Shown: positions 12,322-49,790 of the stretch, piece by piece | Layout of the letters: every line of letters starts with the position of its first letter | Numbering within the stretch: the stretch's first letter is position 1 | From: Lichina pygmaea | Lineage: Eukaryota; Ascomycota; Lichinomycetes; Lichinales; Lichinaceae | Direction: 5' to 3' | Length of the DNA stretch: 64,000 nucleotides | Assembly (NCBI GenBank): GCA_963422465.1 | Contig: OY730175.1 | Span: forward strand, 1,178,001-1,242,000 | Notes under the pieces: model-generated | Databases searched by the model: none | What the model was told of the DNA's origin: nothing | What the model saw: the letters and a program-made list of their open reading frames with translations, nothing else | Translations under genes and position numbers: made by a program

Positions 12322-12489
12322 GGCGTTGTGGCAGAGTGGTTGTACGTTCCTCCTTTCCAGAGATGTGTCTTCGTCTTGACGACGTAATCACATGAAAACT
12401 GCCACGCTAACTTGCATTCTTCTTACAGAATGCGTGTGACTAGAAATCACATCCCTTCGGGGTCAGAGGTTCGAGTCCTCTCAACGTCG
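12322..12489 (+). tRNA. tRNA-Ser (anticodon AGA) split in the D-loop by an 87-nt intron
   Basis: Joining 12322-12341 to 12429-12489 gives an 81-nt type II tRNA. The acceptor stem GGCGTTG pairs with CAACGTC and is followed by discriminator G (12489), as in serine tRNAs. The D arm is GCA-GAGTGGTTAA-TGC, whose loop is the same as in yeast tRNA-Ser. The anticodon arm is TGTGA-CTAGAAA-TCACA with AGA at 12442-12444. A variable arm with a CCC/GGG stem follows, then T arm AGAGG-TTCGAGT-CCTCT. The A box (TGGCAGAGTGG, 12329-12339) and B box (GGTTCGAGTCC, 12468-12478) are both intact but about 128 nt apart instead of about 40. Without removal of 12342-12428 the D arm cannot form. No intron lies at the usual 37/38 position. 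Confidence 0.88.
12342..12428 (+). other. spliceosomal-type intron inside the tRNA-Ser D-loop
   Basis: The 87-nt insert starts GTACGT, ends CTTACAG, and carries CGCTAAC with the branch A at 12410, 18 nt before the 3' end. These are the signals of the protein-gene introns in this window, several of which also use GTACGT. Its removal exactly restores the loop GAGTGGTTAA and the GCA/TGC D-stem. Nuclear tRNA introns known in fungi sit one base 3' of the anticodon and are cut by the tRNA endonuclease from a bulge-helix-bulge; this one is in the D-loop and has mRNA-type ends. Confidence 0.8.
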
Positions 12490-12495
12490 GAATTA

Positions 12496-12501
12496 TTTTT
12501 T
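12496..12501 (+). terminator. Pol III terminator (T6)
   Basis: Six T residues start seven bases after the tRNA-Ser discriminator, the usual place for RNA polymerase III termination. A second T run follows at about 12506. Confidence 0.75.
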
Positions 12502-43377: not shown

Positions 43378-45630
43378 GATGCGCACGACGATGGCGATAC
43401 TTGAGGCGCAGGAACGTACGTCCCGCGGGGCGAGCGATCAAGGTTCACCGGATGACCAGGAGCAGTTGAAAAACAGTGGGAACGTCGTCGAGCGTTTCGA
43501 GCTCTCAAGAGATCGATTCAACAAAGAGATATGGTTCTAGGATCCGGACTGGACGACGACCGATGCAGCCGGGCCTAGCAAGTACCGTACCCGCCGGAAG
43601 ACAACCAGATGTCAATCAAGAGCTGGATGCTGTTCGATTGGGGCAGCATGACAGGTCGAACGAAGTGAGACGACACTGTCACGTCTGGTCGCGTGCTCCT
43701 ACTCCTTCGTCTCCTTCTTGTCTCTCTATCTCTCTTGGTCTCCCTCTTGTCTCTTCCTCCTCCGCCTCCCCCGCCTCCATCTCGGCCGGTGACATCCCAT
43801 CCGTCGCGGCGGGAGATGCCGACGAAGATCCCCGATGCCGGCGGCGAAAAGTACGGATCAAAGAAAAGGTTACTACCTATCCAGGGTCCGTCTCCCATTG
43901 GGCGATGATGGCATCATGGCTGTGGGGTTTCGAAGTCTATTGGGAATCCCACAGAGCCGATGAGAGTGACGTTGTGAACGGGCCTCGACGTTCACGGCTG
44001 GTGTGTGGTTAGGGCTTTGTACATACGTACTGAGGTGCCGGTACGTACGTACGTATGTACTGAGTACCTCTCGGTGTGCGTAAGCTTCTTTCCAAAACTA
44101 GTACTTACGTACTGAGTTCATTGTGGCTGTCAGCCGGTCTACCTCGCAGACGTCGAGCCACGTGATGTTTGATGCTGAGTCATCAGTGGCTGAGCTAGCC
44201 TGGCTGCTATACGAGTACGGAGTACATACGTACTTCCGTACTCCCGTACGAAGGTATGTACAGTACTACCTCTCCACACACCGCACTGCGGTACTCGTCC
44301 GCCACATCAAGAAGGCTTGAGCTGTCTACTCGTACTTGACATTTGGCATGCCACAACACTATAGTCTAAGTATCTACATACATTACTGAGATTCGAGCAG
44401 TACGTACTGATATGGAGAGGCATGTACAATACGTGATGTATTGCTTCACCAGTACCTCCGTACGCAACCATATGCGTACCAGTACATACCCACATACTAT
44501 CGCTTGTACCCCCGTACATCTGGGGGCACGACATCTTACGTGCGTACGAAGTACGAGTACAGAAGGCCCCGTGCCCTCCACATCCAAAGCAAGCCGTACT
44601 GTACGGAACGTATACAGAGGTGAGTACGTAACGTAGTATGTCTCCTGAAGTGAGCGTACTGCAGGGCACAGCCACAGACGATGAGCACCCAGACACAGCC
44701 TCTTGGCACCTATACCACAGGCCCCCAAGCCTACAGCTCTGTAGTATCCTCACCTAAAGCCGTACTGTAAATCCCGGTATGCCAGCCCCACGAAGCCTGA
44801 CTCACAGCCCAGGCATGCTCAGACGCACAACACACAGCTGTCCGCCTTCACACTGAACCAGCAGAAGAGACTCATCTCGGGCGACCAGAAAGGACAACCG
44901 GAGAGGATGTCCATATGCACTCAACAGGCGAGCAGACCGCAAGTCGAACAACACAGCGAACCATCTTGTTCCGGCCAATGTCTACTCCCATCAACATCTT
45001 TCCTCGAGTAGCCTCCGCGATGAGCATTCTCCCCCTTGCAAGACTACAGCGCAGAATGCAAGAGCACAGCGCAAGTTGCGAGACCACGATACAAGTCGCA
45101 AGACCGGGACGGTGCTCAAGGCGATTGGCCAAGAAAAACACTTTTTTCCCGAAGGCATTGATTGGCCCGTAGCATGAACAGCAGCCCCAGTTCTAAACAT
45201 GTCTCCTCGGACCACACCTCTACCGTGTAGCGCTCCCCTGTATCAACCAAAAGTGGTTGTCGACGGAGAGCACTCACTGTGGTATGCATGCGTGCAGAAG
45301 CATCGTAAGAGAGAGAAGAAAAAAAAAGATAGAAAGCAGACACGCAAGCCCAAGGGGCGGCATCCTGTAGGAGAAAACGTCGAGGCCCCTCTGGATGATG
45401 TGAAAGCGGGAAATCTATGTCGATGCGAAACTTTTTTTTTTCTTGGGTCGAAGAGAAAGTCTGTCTATATGCCTTTCCGACGGACACCCTACAGCAGGAG
45501 AGAAAGAGAAAGAGAAAGAGAAGAAAAAAAAAGGGGGGGGGGGGGGGGGAGGAAGGGAAGAAATCTTGGCATTGGTGAGTGTCACAGACTGAAACAAGAA
45601 GGACGACGTCATCGTGGACAAACATATCTC
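43378..45630. other. intergenic, rich in GTAC palindromes
   Basis: Between the ethanolamine kinase start and the 3' end of the New1-like gene. It has a C/T-rich run (43700-43790) and dense GTACGTAC/GTACTGTAC palindromes from about 44025 to 44640. A 17-base G run (45533-45549) follows (GAAA)n and A9. Short open frames have no family resemblance. Confidence 0.5.
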
Positions 45631-46729
45631 TCACGTCTCGTCGTCGGTGTCCGGTGGCTTGGGCGTCCCCTTGGGGCTGTTCAGCCACTCGATGTGTCTC
45701 AGCTTCCGGCGGACGTCGCGCTCCTTGAGCTGGTTGCGCGTGAGCTTCTTCTTCTTCTTGGACTTGAAGTTCATCTCGCCGGGCCCGCCGCCGTCTTCGG
45801 CGCCCGAGTTGACGGCCGAGGCGGTGGCGGACGAGACGGCGCTGCTGCCGGGTCGGCTGTCGTCGAAGCGATCCGTCATGACGGCGAGGAGGCCCTTGTG
45901 CGTGAGCCGTCCGTCGCCGACGTGCCAGTGTTCCGGGCAGAGCGCGCCGACGAACTCCTCGTTGTGGGAGATCATGATGACGCCGCCCTTGAAGTCGCGG
46001 ATCGCGACCGCGAGGCCGCCGAGCGAGTCCCGGTCCAAGAAGTTGGTCGGCTCGTCGAGGACCAGCAGGTGCGGGTTGTTCCACATCGCGCCCGCCAGCA
46101 CCACCTTGACCTTCTGCCCGCCCGAGAGCCCGGAGATGGCCGTGTGGTTGGCGATGTCCGGGTCCAGCCCCAAATCCTCAAAGTGCTTCGAGATGACTTT
46201 GGGCGACAGCTCCCGGAAGCCGAGGCCCTCGCGCGACGCTTCGTGATCGTCAAACTCCTGCACGAGCTTCTGGAAGCCGAGCTCGAGCAGCGTCTCGCGG
46301 GAGATCTGCGAGTTGTGTCTCGGCAGCATCGCGACCCATTTCCTGCAGGGGTCGTGTGAGCAAAGGGAAAAGTCGTCCCCGTCTCGAATGCGCGGGTCGC
46401 CGTTGTACTTACACCTCGTATTGGAGACTCTTCTTGTACTTCGCCCTGCCGATGAGGTTCTCGATCCGTCTCGGTCCCTTGCCGTCGCCGAGATCCACCG
46501 GCTTGTCCATCTGAGCTTGGTCTTCGGCCGTCAAGATTCTCGTCTGCTTCATCAGCACCTCGCGGTCGTCCCCGTTGGCGTAGCGCCACTGCAGGTACTG
46601 GTTCGGAGTCTTCTCGAGATGCATCTCGACGTGCTCGAGGGCGTGTTGCTTGATGTATCCGATCCGTAAGTTTGGATGCTTCTCGACCTTGCCTTCTTGG
46701 GGGATCATCTCTCCCGTGAGGAGCTTCAC

Positions 46730-46762
<33 letters not shown>

Positions 46763-49146
46763 GATGGCAACCCGCGAAGACAGGGAGAGCGCACAGCTCG
46801 CGTTATAGAGCGATGGTTTGGACGACCCAGGATACGTGTACGTGACGTTCGTCATCCTCACGATAGCCCGAGTCATGGACTTGACTCCGGTTAGGATGCC
46901 CGGTGGCGGGAATTTGAACTGGGCGTTTGAAGCAGACAGGGTGTAGTAGCTCTTGGCTTCTGGCTTCAGCTTGACAAAACTGCAGCGCCACGTCAGCACT
47001 CTCTCCCGAAAAGAGACACAGGGGCAGAAAGAGGCTCACCTTGCCAGGTTGCCCGGGTAGACCGCCAGCTTCTTCCCCTCGTAATGGTATATGTCGGTCG
47101 TGACCTCGTCGAGGAAGCTCGAGTCGTGGCTCACGATGAGACTCGTGATCTCGGTGTGCTTCTTCAGGTAGTCTTGCAGCCACTTGACGTTGCCGACGTC
47201 CAAGTGGTTGGTCGGTTCGTCCAGCAGCAAGACGTCGGCGCGCATCAGCATCGCCCGAGCGAGCGCCAGCTTCATCTTCCACCCCCCAGAGAGCGACCCC
47301 ACCTTCTGCTGCTGCCGGCCGTTGGGTCCGGCGGTAAATCCAAACTCGCTCAGAACTTCCGAGATGCGCTCCTTGCCCGTGGCGGCTAGCTCCGGATCCT
47401 TCGCCATGAAGTCGAGGATGCTGAGATCGGCATCCTCGCCCTGGTTGTGTTCCACGAAGCACGTCCTGAGTTCATCCTTGCTGGGGAACCCTTCCAACTT
47501 GCCGTCGGCGATGCTTCGCATCAGCGTCGACTTTCCGGCACCGTTCCGACCACAGAGACCGTAGCGATGGCCCTTGAGCAGGCGAAGTTTGGTATGGGAC
47601 AGCAGCAGCATGCCGCCGTACCCGAGCGAGAATTCTGCGTTGACAATCTCGACCTCGGACGAATCCTCCTTGACTGGCTCGCCGAAGCGGCGGCGGTCTT
47701 CCGCAACGAAATGCTCTTGCACCTTCCCAGCCACGGTCTTCGCCAACGCTGCATCTTCCGCCAGGGAGCGCAGATACGGCTCAACGCAATCCAAGATTCG
47801 AGCGTGCTCTCTCAAGAGAACGTCCTCTTGGACCATGCCACAGACGTAGGGTTTCAGCGAAGCAAGCAGTTTTTGACCGTCGGACTGCAGCAGCGACGCA
47901 GCATGAGACCGCAACGCTTTCTGCAAAACTTCCTCGACGTCGTGAGCGGTCACAGAAAACACAGCCCTGCTCTTGTCGTGGTCGTCGCCCATTGCCTTTT
48001 CGATGACCGCGGTGGCCCGCATAGCCAATTCCCGAACTTCCGGCTGAGATGCCCGCTCGTGTACGGACTTGACACCGGGCCTCAGTTTCGGCAGGAATGC
48101 TCGCGCTTCAACCGGATCGTGGACGAGCTTCGTGAGGTTCTCGATGACCACCACCGTCTGGCGTAAAACCTCCTGCGAAGTGCTGGGGGTGTTCAGCGAG
48201 CGTTCGAGCAGTGGCGTCACCAGCGCCAGTACCGGCGAGGTGACGATGGCGACAAAGGTGGTCTGCGACAGGTCATGTATCGCCTTCTGAAGGGTAGTCG
48301 ACGAAGGGTTCCGCATGGTCTCGATGATGATGGGTATCCTAGGACCGATGTCGTCGTTTGAGATTAACGTGGTCAGAGACACCAGCGTCTTGTTCGCTGC
48401 TTTGGAGACCTGAGGAGCCCAGATCAGCGTCTCTTCCACCCAGGGCCACAAAGAGCTCGATGAAAGGAGCATGGCCAGCACGCTCTTACCTCGGCCTTCA
48501 AATGGTGCATGCCACTCTCGACGACCGGTATCAGCCGGGCGAGTTTCCGGCCCATCGACTCCCGCAGAACTTCCTTCTCTTTCTCTGCTTCCTTGCTTCC
48601 GGTACCGATTTGTGCCTTCTCGGCCATCTTTCCCAGTGAGCGCAACGCCACGACGGTGCCCTGCCATTTGGCGGCCTTGTGCTCCAAGTAGTCCAGCAGA
48701 ACGGGCAACAGACCCGCCACCAGCGCCTCAGCCTTGAGGTTTTCGAAAAGAGCGTCGAGCGCATATTGCGCCGACTCCCTCACGACCCCGCCCTTGTCGG
48801 CCAGGGCATCGAGCGCCAGAGCCACGTAGCCGGCTGGCTGCAGGAAGATAACCTCGACGATTGGCAGTGGCCGAGGGAGTCTCTCGAACAGTGCTCCGAG
48901 AAGGATCATCGCGCTCTCCCGACGAGCGCCGTTCTTCTTGTCCGTCGCCGCTTTCTTGATCTCGGCCAGGATCCCATGTTCGTTCAGCGCTCGCCATCCG
49001 AGACTCTGCGATATTGCGTCCGTGAGGGCATAGGAGGCGTCAAGGGATCCTTGCGACGTTTCCGCCGCGAATGCCCTCTGCATGATAGCTGCTACATCTT
49101 CTGAAGTGGGCCGGCCATCGGCCGCGGAGGCGGACTTGACCGTCAT
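45631..49146 (-). CDS. eEF3-family ABC-F ATPase, New1/Elf1 type
   Basis: Minus-strand exons 48490-49146, 47040-48409, 46413-46979 and 45631-46342 give 1101 residues from MTVKSASAADG; an in-frame ATG at 49182 would add 12. Order: HEAT repeats (about 1-430), then ABC1 with GRNGAGKST, LSGGWKMKLALARAM and LLLDEPTNHLD. ABC2 has GENGAGKST, LSGGQKVKVVLAGAM and LVLDEPTNFLD. A chromodomain-like insert (YEVKWVAMLPRHNSQISRET) sits between the ABC2 motifs. The C-terminus KSKKKKKLTRNQLKERDVRR ... IEWLNSPKGTPKP differs from the polybasic end of true eEF3 and points to the New1 (budding yeast) / Elf1 (fission yeast) branch. These ribosome-bound ATPases help translation termination and recycling. The yeast New1 prion-type N-terminus is absent. 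Confidence 0.88.
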
Positions 49147-49790
49147 TATGGGTAAAAGCTGGGGCGAGACTTGATGTGGCATTCTGAGCGTCGTCGACCA
49201 GTGTGCAGGCGGTGAGGAAACGACCTCCAAAGGTCGACGAAGCAGCCGCAGTCGACTCTTTAATAAAGACCCACGGTCATGTTAGGGCTGATGCAAGCGT
49301 GGCGGAGACTTTTGTGCGCTGCCGTAAGCAATCGACGTGGCGCAACTGAAATTCGAGCTGACTGGAAAATGTGCTTGCAGGCCTCGCTTTCACATGATCA
49401 AAGACATCCTCTTTTGGTCTAGCGAGGCGACGTCGGAATAATGATGATCCGCAGTACATACTGGTATATATATCACGTGACAGAGTCCTCGACCAGAATC
49501 TTTGACAGGACCATCGACCTGCAGATGTACGGAGTACCCACAGAAGGTTTGATACGATGTGACCGCTCTACGAGTACGTGACGTACTGGATTGAGGAATC
49601 GTACTCCCCATGCTATGCCCCTTTGCGGAGTGTTTGCTGGTCAATGTACTTCCCACTACTTCCGTACTCCGTACGAAGATAGAGCCACCATGAGATCAGG
49701 AATCGTCTCAACTGCCCCACAACCTCACCTCAGAAGCCTAATGAAAGCCGCAGTCAACTATAGCCCTCTTTCCAACATGCGTGCTGGGGT
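49147..49790. other. promoter region of the New1-like gene
   Basis: Also the 3' flank of mclA. TATATATA occurs near 49467. No gene recognised. Confidence 0.5.

Follow-up and report, generated by a model that had tools for sequence, protein, structure and literature searches.

The stretch of DNA analysed here (the window) is the 64,000-nucleotide segment C7:1178001-1242000 of the Lichina pygmaea assembly, which comprises 32.47 Mb in 8 contigs. Positions 12322-12489 of its forward strand form a tRNA-Ser(AGA) gene whose D-loop is interrupted by an insert of 87 nt. In a local search this interval scored 41.5 bits against the Rfam tRNA model, the gathering score of which is 29, and the Rfam alignment assigns an 89-nt insert to the D-loop. 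Over the window as a whole, no tRNA was reported either by ARAGORN run without introns or by Rfam at gathering thresholds. When introns were allowed, ARAGORN assigned 12322-12489 (locus L045) to Thr(CGT), with an intron of 78 nt, a call that leaves the CTAGAAA anticodon arm unused.

The Rfam alignment and the cut gene define two exons. Exon 1 (12322-12341, forward strand) contains the 5′ strand of the acceptor, the 5′ strand of the D-stem and the D-loop as far as GTGGTT; exon 2 (12429-12489, forward strand) contains the 3′ strand of the D-stem, the anticodon arm (AGA at 12442-12444), the variable arm, the T arm, the acceptor and G73. The original prediction held that cutting out 12342-12428 leaves an 81-nt serine tRNA with all arms paired, and this is what we found: ARAGORN calls the remaining 81 nt tRNA-Ser(AGA), a complete class II cloverleaf with anticodon AGA, 7 acceptor pairs, 3 pairs in the D-stem, at least 5 in the anticodon stem, 5 in the T-stem, a long variable arm and G73. 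Our parser scores it at 29.2, exactly as it does Ser(GCT), Leu(TAG), Leu(CAG) and Leu(AAG), class II genes from the same genome, and its D-loop is, we assume, that of the yeast tRNA. Fold prediction gives the full cloverleaf as the minimum-energy structure of the spliced form; the D-arm is absent from the predicted fold of the unspliced form.

As placed by the Rfam alignment, the cut and the shuffles described below, the insert (12342-12428, forward strand) lies between about positions 20a and 21, i.e. in the D-loop rather than one nucleotide 3′ of the anticodon, and is therefore not a 37/38 intron. Direct reading of the sequence gives GTACGT at the 5′ splice site (12342-12347), CTAAC at the branch site (12407-12411, with the A at 12410, 18 nt from the 3′ end) and TTACAG at the 3′ splice site (12423-12428), each exactly where the original prediction had put it. 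An A box (TGGCAGAGTGG, 12329-12339) and a B box (GGTTCGAGTCC, 12468-12478, C7:1190468; located by a pattern search) are both intact on the same strand, and TTTTTT at 12496-12501 forms a Pol III-type terminator.

The window also holds an EF3/New1-like ABC-F ATPase gene (45600-49300, reverse strand) with at least three introns. The three that we delimited by eye start with GTAAGA, GTGAGC and GTAAGT and end with TCAG, GCAG and GCAG, and have CTGAT, CTGAC and, in the third, CTCAC at the branch site, the last of which is not CTRAY. A window-wide intron prediction by open frames gave 42 calls on the two real strands versus 27 on two control strands and was abandoned as too noisy. Finally, a GH16 protein encoded in the window is 70-73% identical to proteins of Piccolia ochrophora, Peltula, Caeruleum, Phylliscum, Thelocarpon and Sclerophora; a 61% match labelled Quercus suber is presumably a contaminant. 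We take Piccolia and Thelocarpon to be near Lichinomycetes, and the lineages of the nearest window protein matches presumably include lichen-forming ones. NCBI lists both Piccolia and Thelocarpon as leotiomyceta incertae sedis. Taken together, the GH16 matches place the genome within the Pezizomycotina (Ascomycota), close to lineages that form lichens.

A genome search with RF00005, in which 62 of 631 candidates were scored, gave at least 37 matches, and the window gene is not among the matches listed. We parsed 47 tRNA-like genes (37 from RF00005 and 10 others): 39 are ordinary, four have ectopic GT-AG inserts, three are tRNA-like repeats (L033, L041 and L042) and one is false. Outside this census stand 19 sites with a B box and a T-run, plus about two dozen more, which mostly resemble the two repeat families described next. 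Among the ordinary genes (L009-L043, L079-L122) four are intronless and 35 have a 37/38 intron, the lengths ranging from 10 to 88 nt. A high share of 37/38-type introns is found elsewhere too, e.g. in 132 of 143 genes in Cryptococcus neoformans, as cited in PMC4090602.

Several tRNA-like repeats were encountered along the way. One Pol III-like element, GGACGATTGGCCTAGGGG..(about 150 nt)..ATCGTCTA, is present in multiple copies (L049, L050, L055, L058 and further sites). It has an upstream TATA-like box, A and B boxes, a T-run and tRNA-like ends, lacks a clear anticodon arm, and may be a SINE or an unusual tRNA. A second multi-copy element, GAACGATTAGCTTAGTGG..ATCGTTCA (L033, L041, L048, L057, L076 and L125), is often paired, with copies about 250 nt apart, and is devoid of a standard anticodon loop; its L057 copy scores 44 bits against the Rfam tRNA model and has a long anticodon-arm insert with TTGATCC hairpins. 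An ARAGORN call of Ser(CGA) in L076 yielded no tRNA on parsing. L047 (C2:239501-243000) is a tandem array of ~100-nt units with the B-box-like core CAGGGTTCGAATCCCTAGCTCTCGAGA, and L015, L024 and L042 (C1 and C4:2098.6-2101.1 kb) are related tRNA-like genes of the form GCYGGTGTGGTCTAGTGG.. that differ in their anticodons, L042 having no normal anticodon loop.

Apart from the window locus, three genes in the genome carry mRNA-type inserts: those for initiator tRNA-Met, tRNA-Glu(TTC) and tRNA-Leu(TAA). The 90-nt insert of the initiator gene on contig C5 (L046, 401-562) is located in the T-loop (CTCCGATCGA/GTGAGT...GGCTGACGG...AATTAG/AACGGAG, branch site CTGAC). Once it is cut out, the T-stem, the loop AUCGAAA, which we take to be of the initiator type, and the acceptor are all regained, and ARAGORN then calls Met(CAT). 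The tRNA-Glu(TTC) gene, also on C5 (L128), has a 59-nt insert in the D-stem (TGGTG/GTGAGT...GACTAAC...CTCCAG/TATCGG) plus a 16-nt 37/38 intron, and is recognised as Glu(TTC) by ARAGORN with introns allowed once the ectopic insert is cut out. The tRNA-Leu(TAA) gene on C3 (L039) has a 62-nt insert in the anticodon loop (CTT/GTAAGA...ACTAATA...TTGTAG/AAG) plus a 24-nt 37/38 intron. Of the four readings, that of Leu(TAA), picked after inspection, is the least secure: the cut gene is Leu(TAA) according to our own parser and still Thr(TGT) according to ARAGORN. ARAGORN with introns allowed likewise makes Thr(TGT) of the uncut gene, which is implausible for this class II gene with A73, and it finds nothing at the uncut initiator and Glu genes.

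The four inserts (Ser 87, iMet 90, Glu 59 and Leu 62 nt) occupy four different tRNA positions and all combine GTRNG, CTRAY and YAG. Their 5′ sites read GTACGT, GTGAGT, GTGAGT and GTAAGA, and the branch A is 18, 18, 11 and 11 nt from the intron end (Ser, iMet, Glu and Leu, respectively). Their ends match those of the three EF3-like introns, in a comparison made by eye with one gene in which two of the three branch sites are CTRAY.

How often such signals arise by chance was estimated by keeping the exons fixed and shuffling each insert 20,000 times with dinucleotides preserved, a full signal being GTRNG..CTRAY..YAG at a structurally allowed cut. It appeared in 17 (Ser), 4 (iMet), 108 (Glu) and 23 (Leu) of the 20,000 shuffles, figures that cover the choice among equal cuts, which were picked by eye, and not the choice of genes. 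The structurally allowed cuts number 57 for Ser, 3 for iMet, 4 for Glu and 1 for Leu, and exactly one per gene has the full signal. GT-AG alone turned up in 5.5-21.7% of shuffles across the four genes; for Ser (15.6%) it is weak by itself since 57 cuts yield an equally good tRNA, and the weight lies on the full signal. None of the 35 ordinary 37/38 introns has GT-AG ends. Allowing a slack of ±8 nt in the 22 of these introns that are at least 25 nt long (the other 13 are shorter), we found some GT..AG in 13 and the full signal in one, and GT-AG on its own therefore means little.

On this evidence from sequence, we consider it highly probable that what interrupts the Ser gene is a spliceosomal intron of the U2 type, that the gene is a functional nuclear tRNA-Ser(AGA) gene transcribed by Pol III, that the intron is removed by the spliceosome, and that the same holds for the other three genes. 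The spliceosomal-type character proposed in the original prediction is thereby strengthened by three more genes with the same signals and by the lack of GT-AG ends among the 37/38 introns.

A different enzyme could in principle be responsible: the Sen complex might cut the D-loop, D-stem and T-loop inserts through bulge-helix-bulge (BHB) structures, as in Cyanidioschyzon merolae. That 35 of the 39 ordinary genes have 37/38 introns implies an active endonuclease, and ectopic introns in D- and T-loops are known from a red-algal nucleus and from nucleomorphs (PMC3978253 and PMC4090602). However, endonuclease cleavage does not predict that all four genes should combine GTRNG, YAG and a branch site at a cut that the structure allows, and the 35 ordinary 37/38 introns, on which this enzyme acts, do not have GT-AG ends. 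The canonical 37/38 introns share with the ectopic inserts their residence in tRNA genes and differ from them in position, signals and enzyme. The strict BHB central helix, which has four pairs when complete, does not separate the two groups: 0, 1, 3 and 1 of them form at the Ser, iMet, Glu and Leu junctions and likewise 0 to 3 at ordinary 37/38 introns; for Ser, the 0 of 4 becomes 3 of 4 when the junction is shifted by −3 and −4. We grant removal by the endonuclease only a very slim chance. The introns folded alone are no more stable than their shuffles (z from −0.26 to 0.14), and the lack of unusual structure is evidence against ribozymes and self-splicing.

The natural precedents do nevertheless weigh against the spliceosome, as the available parts of PMC4090602 and PMC3978253 do not describe D- and T-arm introns as spliceosomal. 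Both C. merolae and the Guillardia theta nucleomorph resemble the present case in having introns in tRNA D and T arms, and G. theta nucleomorph tRNA genes sometimes have two or three introns each. The ectopic introns of C. merolae are of the BHB, endonuclease type, in contrast to the spliceosomal-type signals seen here, and the one mention of spliceosomal introns in the available part of PMC3978253 concerns protein genes. Those of G. theta are 3-24 nt long, and in PMC4090602 their removal is called unexplained and is not described as spliceosomal.

Another possibility is that the inserts sit in dead, split gene copies, and that the tRNAs are made from intact ones. Where one of many synonymous eukaryotic tRNA genes has an insertion in its D or T arm, it is usually regarded as a pseudogene, nucleomorphs and C. 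merolae being the exceptions (PMC4090602). The Ser(AGA) pattern CTAGAAATN{21,50}GTTCRANYC has one match in the genome, the window locus (control, 0), and the joined Ser tRNA, used as a DNA query, returned exon 2 of the window locus alone; the window gene is the one Ser(AGA) copy that these searches found. The anticodon-arm pattern of the initiator, GGGCTCATAACCC, has two matches (C5:2089043 and C7:2656681), and the pattern A box..CTCATAACC..ATCGA finds the same two loci, the second initiator gene being placed by pattern at C7:2656664. The uninterrupted initiator T-loop pattern ..ATCGAAAC has no match in the genome, and both loci match ..ATCGAGTRNG. Both initiator loci thus seem to have a sequence resembling a splice site at one and the same point of the T-loop, the C7 locus being judged from its pattern match alone. 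The pattern GGTTCRASYCC followed by a T-run has 38 genome matches with one GGTTCGACTCCCCG site, that of L128 (Glu), and would miss a gene with a different B box.

Several normal Ser(AGA) genes elsewhere would, according to the original prediction, have marked the window gene as a dead copy. One match, the window gene itself, speaks against this, but the point is only partly settled: the Ser and initiator patterns need an anticodon loop that no 37/38 intron interrupts, a condition that 35 of the 39 ordinary genes would fail, and further Ser(AGA) or initiator copies with such an intron, or a diverged Ser(AGA) copy, could escape. The census of 47 genes leaves the same room for intact copies. Against pseudogenes stand the single Ser(AGA) match, the state of both initiator loci, the exons of the interrupted genes, which keep all stems, and the use of TCT and TCC codons, of which there are 63 in four window ORFs. 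Overall, we regard dead copies as very unlikely.

As regards the polymerase, the original prediction stated that both internal promoter boxes are left intact, which is correct for the Ser gene but does not extend to the Glu gene, where the insert splits the A box, or to the iMet gene, where it splits the B box. The split boxes would hamper a normal Pol III promoter and count against our preferred explanation; transcription of these two genes may therefore lean on upstream TATA-like stretches, which are visible there. Each of the four genes is followed directly by a run of T5 to T9, and within the genes themselves no run of T exceeds three. The presence of both boxes and a terminator and the absence of an inner T4 fit a spliced Pol III transcript of the Ser gene.

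Alternatively, Pol II might produce an mRNA-like precursor from which the tRNA is spliced and released. Spliceosomal introns are normally tied to Pol II, and an internal Pol III box is split in two of the four genes. The downstream T-runs of all four genes, the absence of inner T4 and the two whole boxes of the window gene argue otherwise, the T4 argument being modest given that T4 occurs in only 4 of the 42 noisy window intron candidates, though TTTT is present in two of the three EF3-like introns. Pol II transcription shares the spliceosomal step with the explanation that we prefer, so that the odds of the two overlap; as a separate account we think it has little chance of being right.

Under Pol III transcription with spliceosomal removal, the polymerase would use the intact A and B boxes to make a 168-nt Ser precursor as far as the T6 terminator. 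The 87-nt intron would be taken out by the spliceosome, the D-arm would fold after that, and ordinary end trimming and modification would come last. The spliceosomal step would probably be first because end-trimming enzymes need a folded tRNA. The same route would apply to initiator tRNA-Met (T-loop), Glu(TTC) (D-stem) and Leu(TAA) (anticodon loop), with Glu(TTC) and Leu(TAA) also requiring the tRNA endonuclease for their 37/38 intron. One structural feature counts against this route: the 3′ splice site sits in a hairpin loop in the predicted fold of the Ser precursor.

Spliceosomal introns outside Pol II genes have parallels. U6 snRNA is a Pol III gene, and mRNA-type introns are known in fungal U6. 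Like the inserts described here, fungal U6 and U2 introns are mRNA-type introns in small non-coding RNA genes, in the case of U6 transcribed by Pol III; their host is an snRNA gene and not a tRNA gene. Spliceosomal introns in the rDNA of lichen ascomycetes were reportedly described by Bhattacharya in 2000; these too reside in a non-Pol II gene class, with a Pol I rRNA host as opposed to a Pol III tRNA. An engineered yeast tRNA precursor carrying a pre-mRNA intron, said to have been published in the EMBO J in 1990, would show that the spliceosome can process a tRNA precursor, albeit an artificial one, whereas the gene described here is natural. Titles cited in PMC2586383 refer to rDNA introns and to an mRNA-type intron in a Rhodotorula U2 gene, and PMC8527467 reports that ectopic spliceosomal introns of lichen rDNA are correctly removed in yeast. 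For natural spliceosomal introns in tRNA genes we found no report among the matches listed from an open-licence library, which lacks most subscription papers.

As to the origin of the introns, an introner element was considered and rejected: the four introns have only words of 7-13 nt in common with each other or with the other genome sequence compared. These short shared words and the ordinary structure of the introns suggest separate gains of the four. In a search for homologous loci, the iMet pattern had no viral-contig and two genome-contig matches and the Ser pattern 15 viral ones; none of the 17 was in a tRNA context.

The interrupted serine gene and the three other tRNA genes suggest that the spliceosome is needed for essential tRNAs. 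It is likely, if less firmly so than the reading of the Ser insert itself, that in this fungal lineage spliceosomal introns have been gained several times over, at unrelated positions, by nuclear tRNA genes transcribed by Pol III, that with both initiator genes found interrupted the decoding of the start codon, as well as of UCU and UCC, depends on the spliceosome, and that some tRNAs need the spliceosome and the endonuclease in order. Such genes mislead annotation tools (with introns allowed, ARAGORN missed or miscalled all four), so others may be overlooked. If essential tRNAs do need the spliceosome, the normal division of labour, with Pol II transcripts handled by the spliceosome and tRNAs by the tRNA endonuclease, would be broken. 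Pol III tRNA genes would then be able to gain spliceosomal introns, these genes would make it possible to test directly if the spliceosome requires a cap or coupling to Pol II, and tRNA supply and translation initiation would be tied to splicing capacity.
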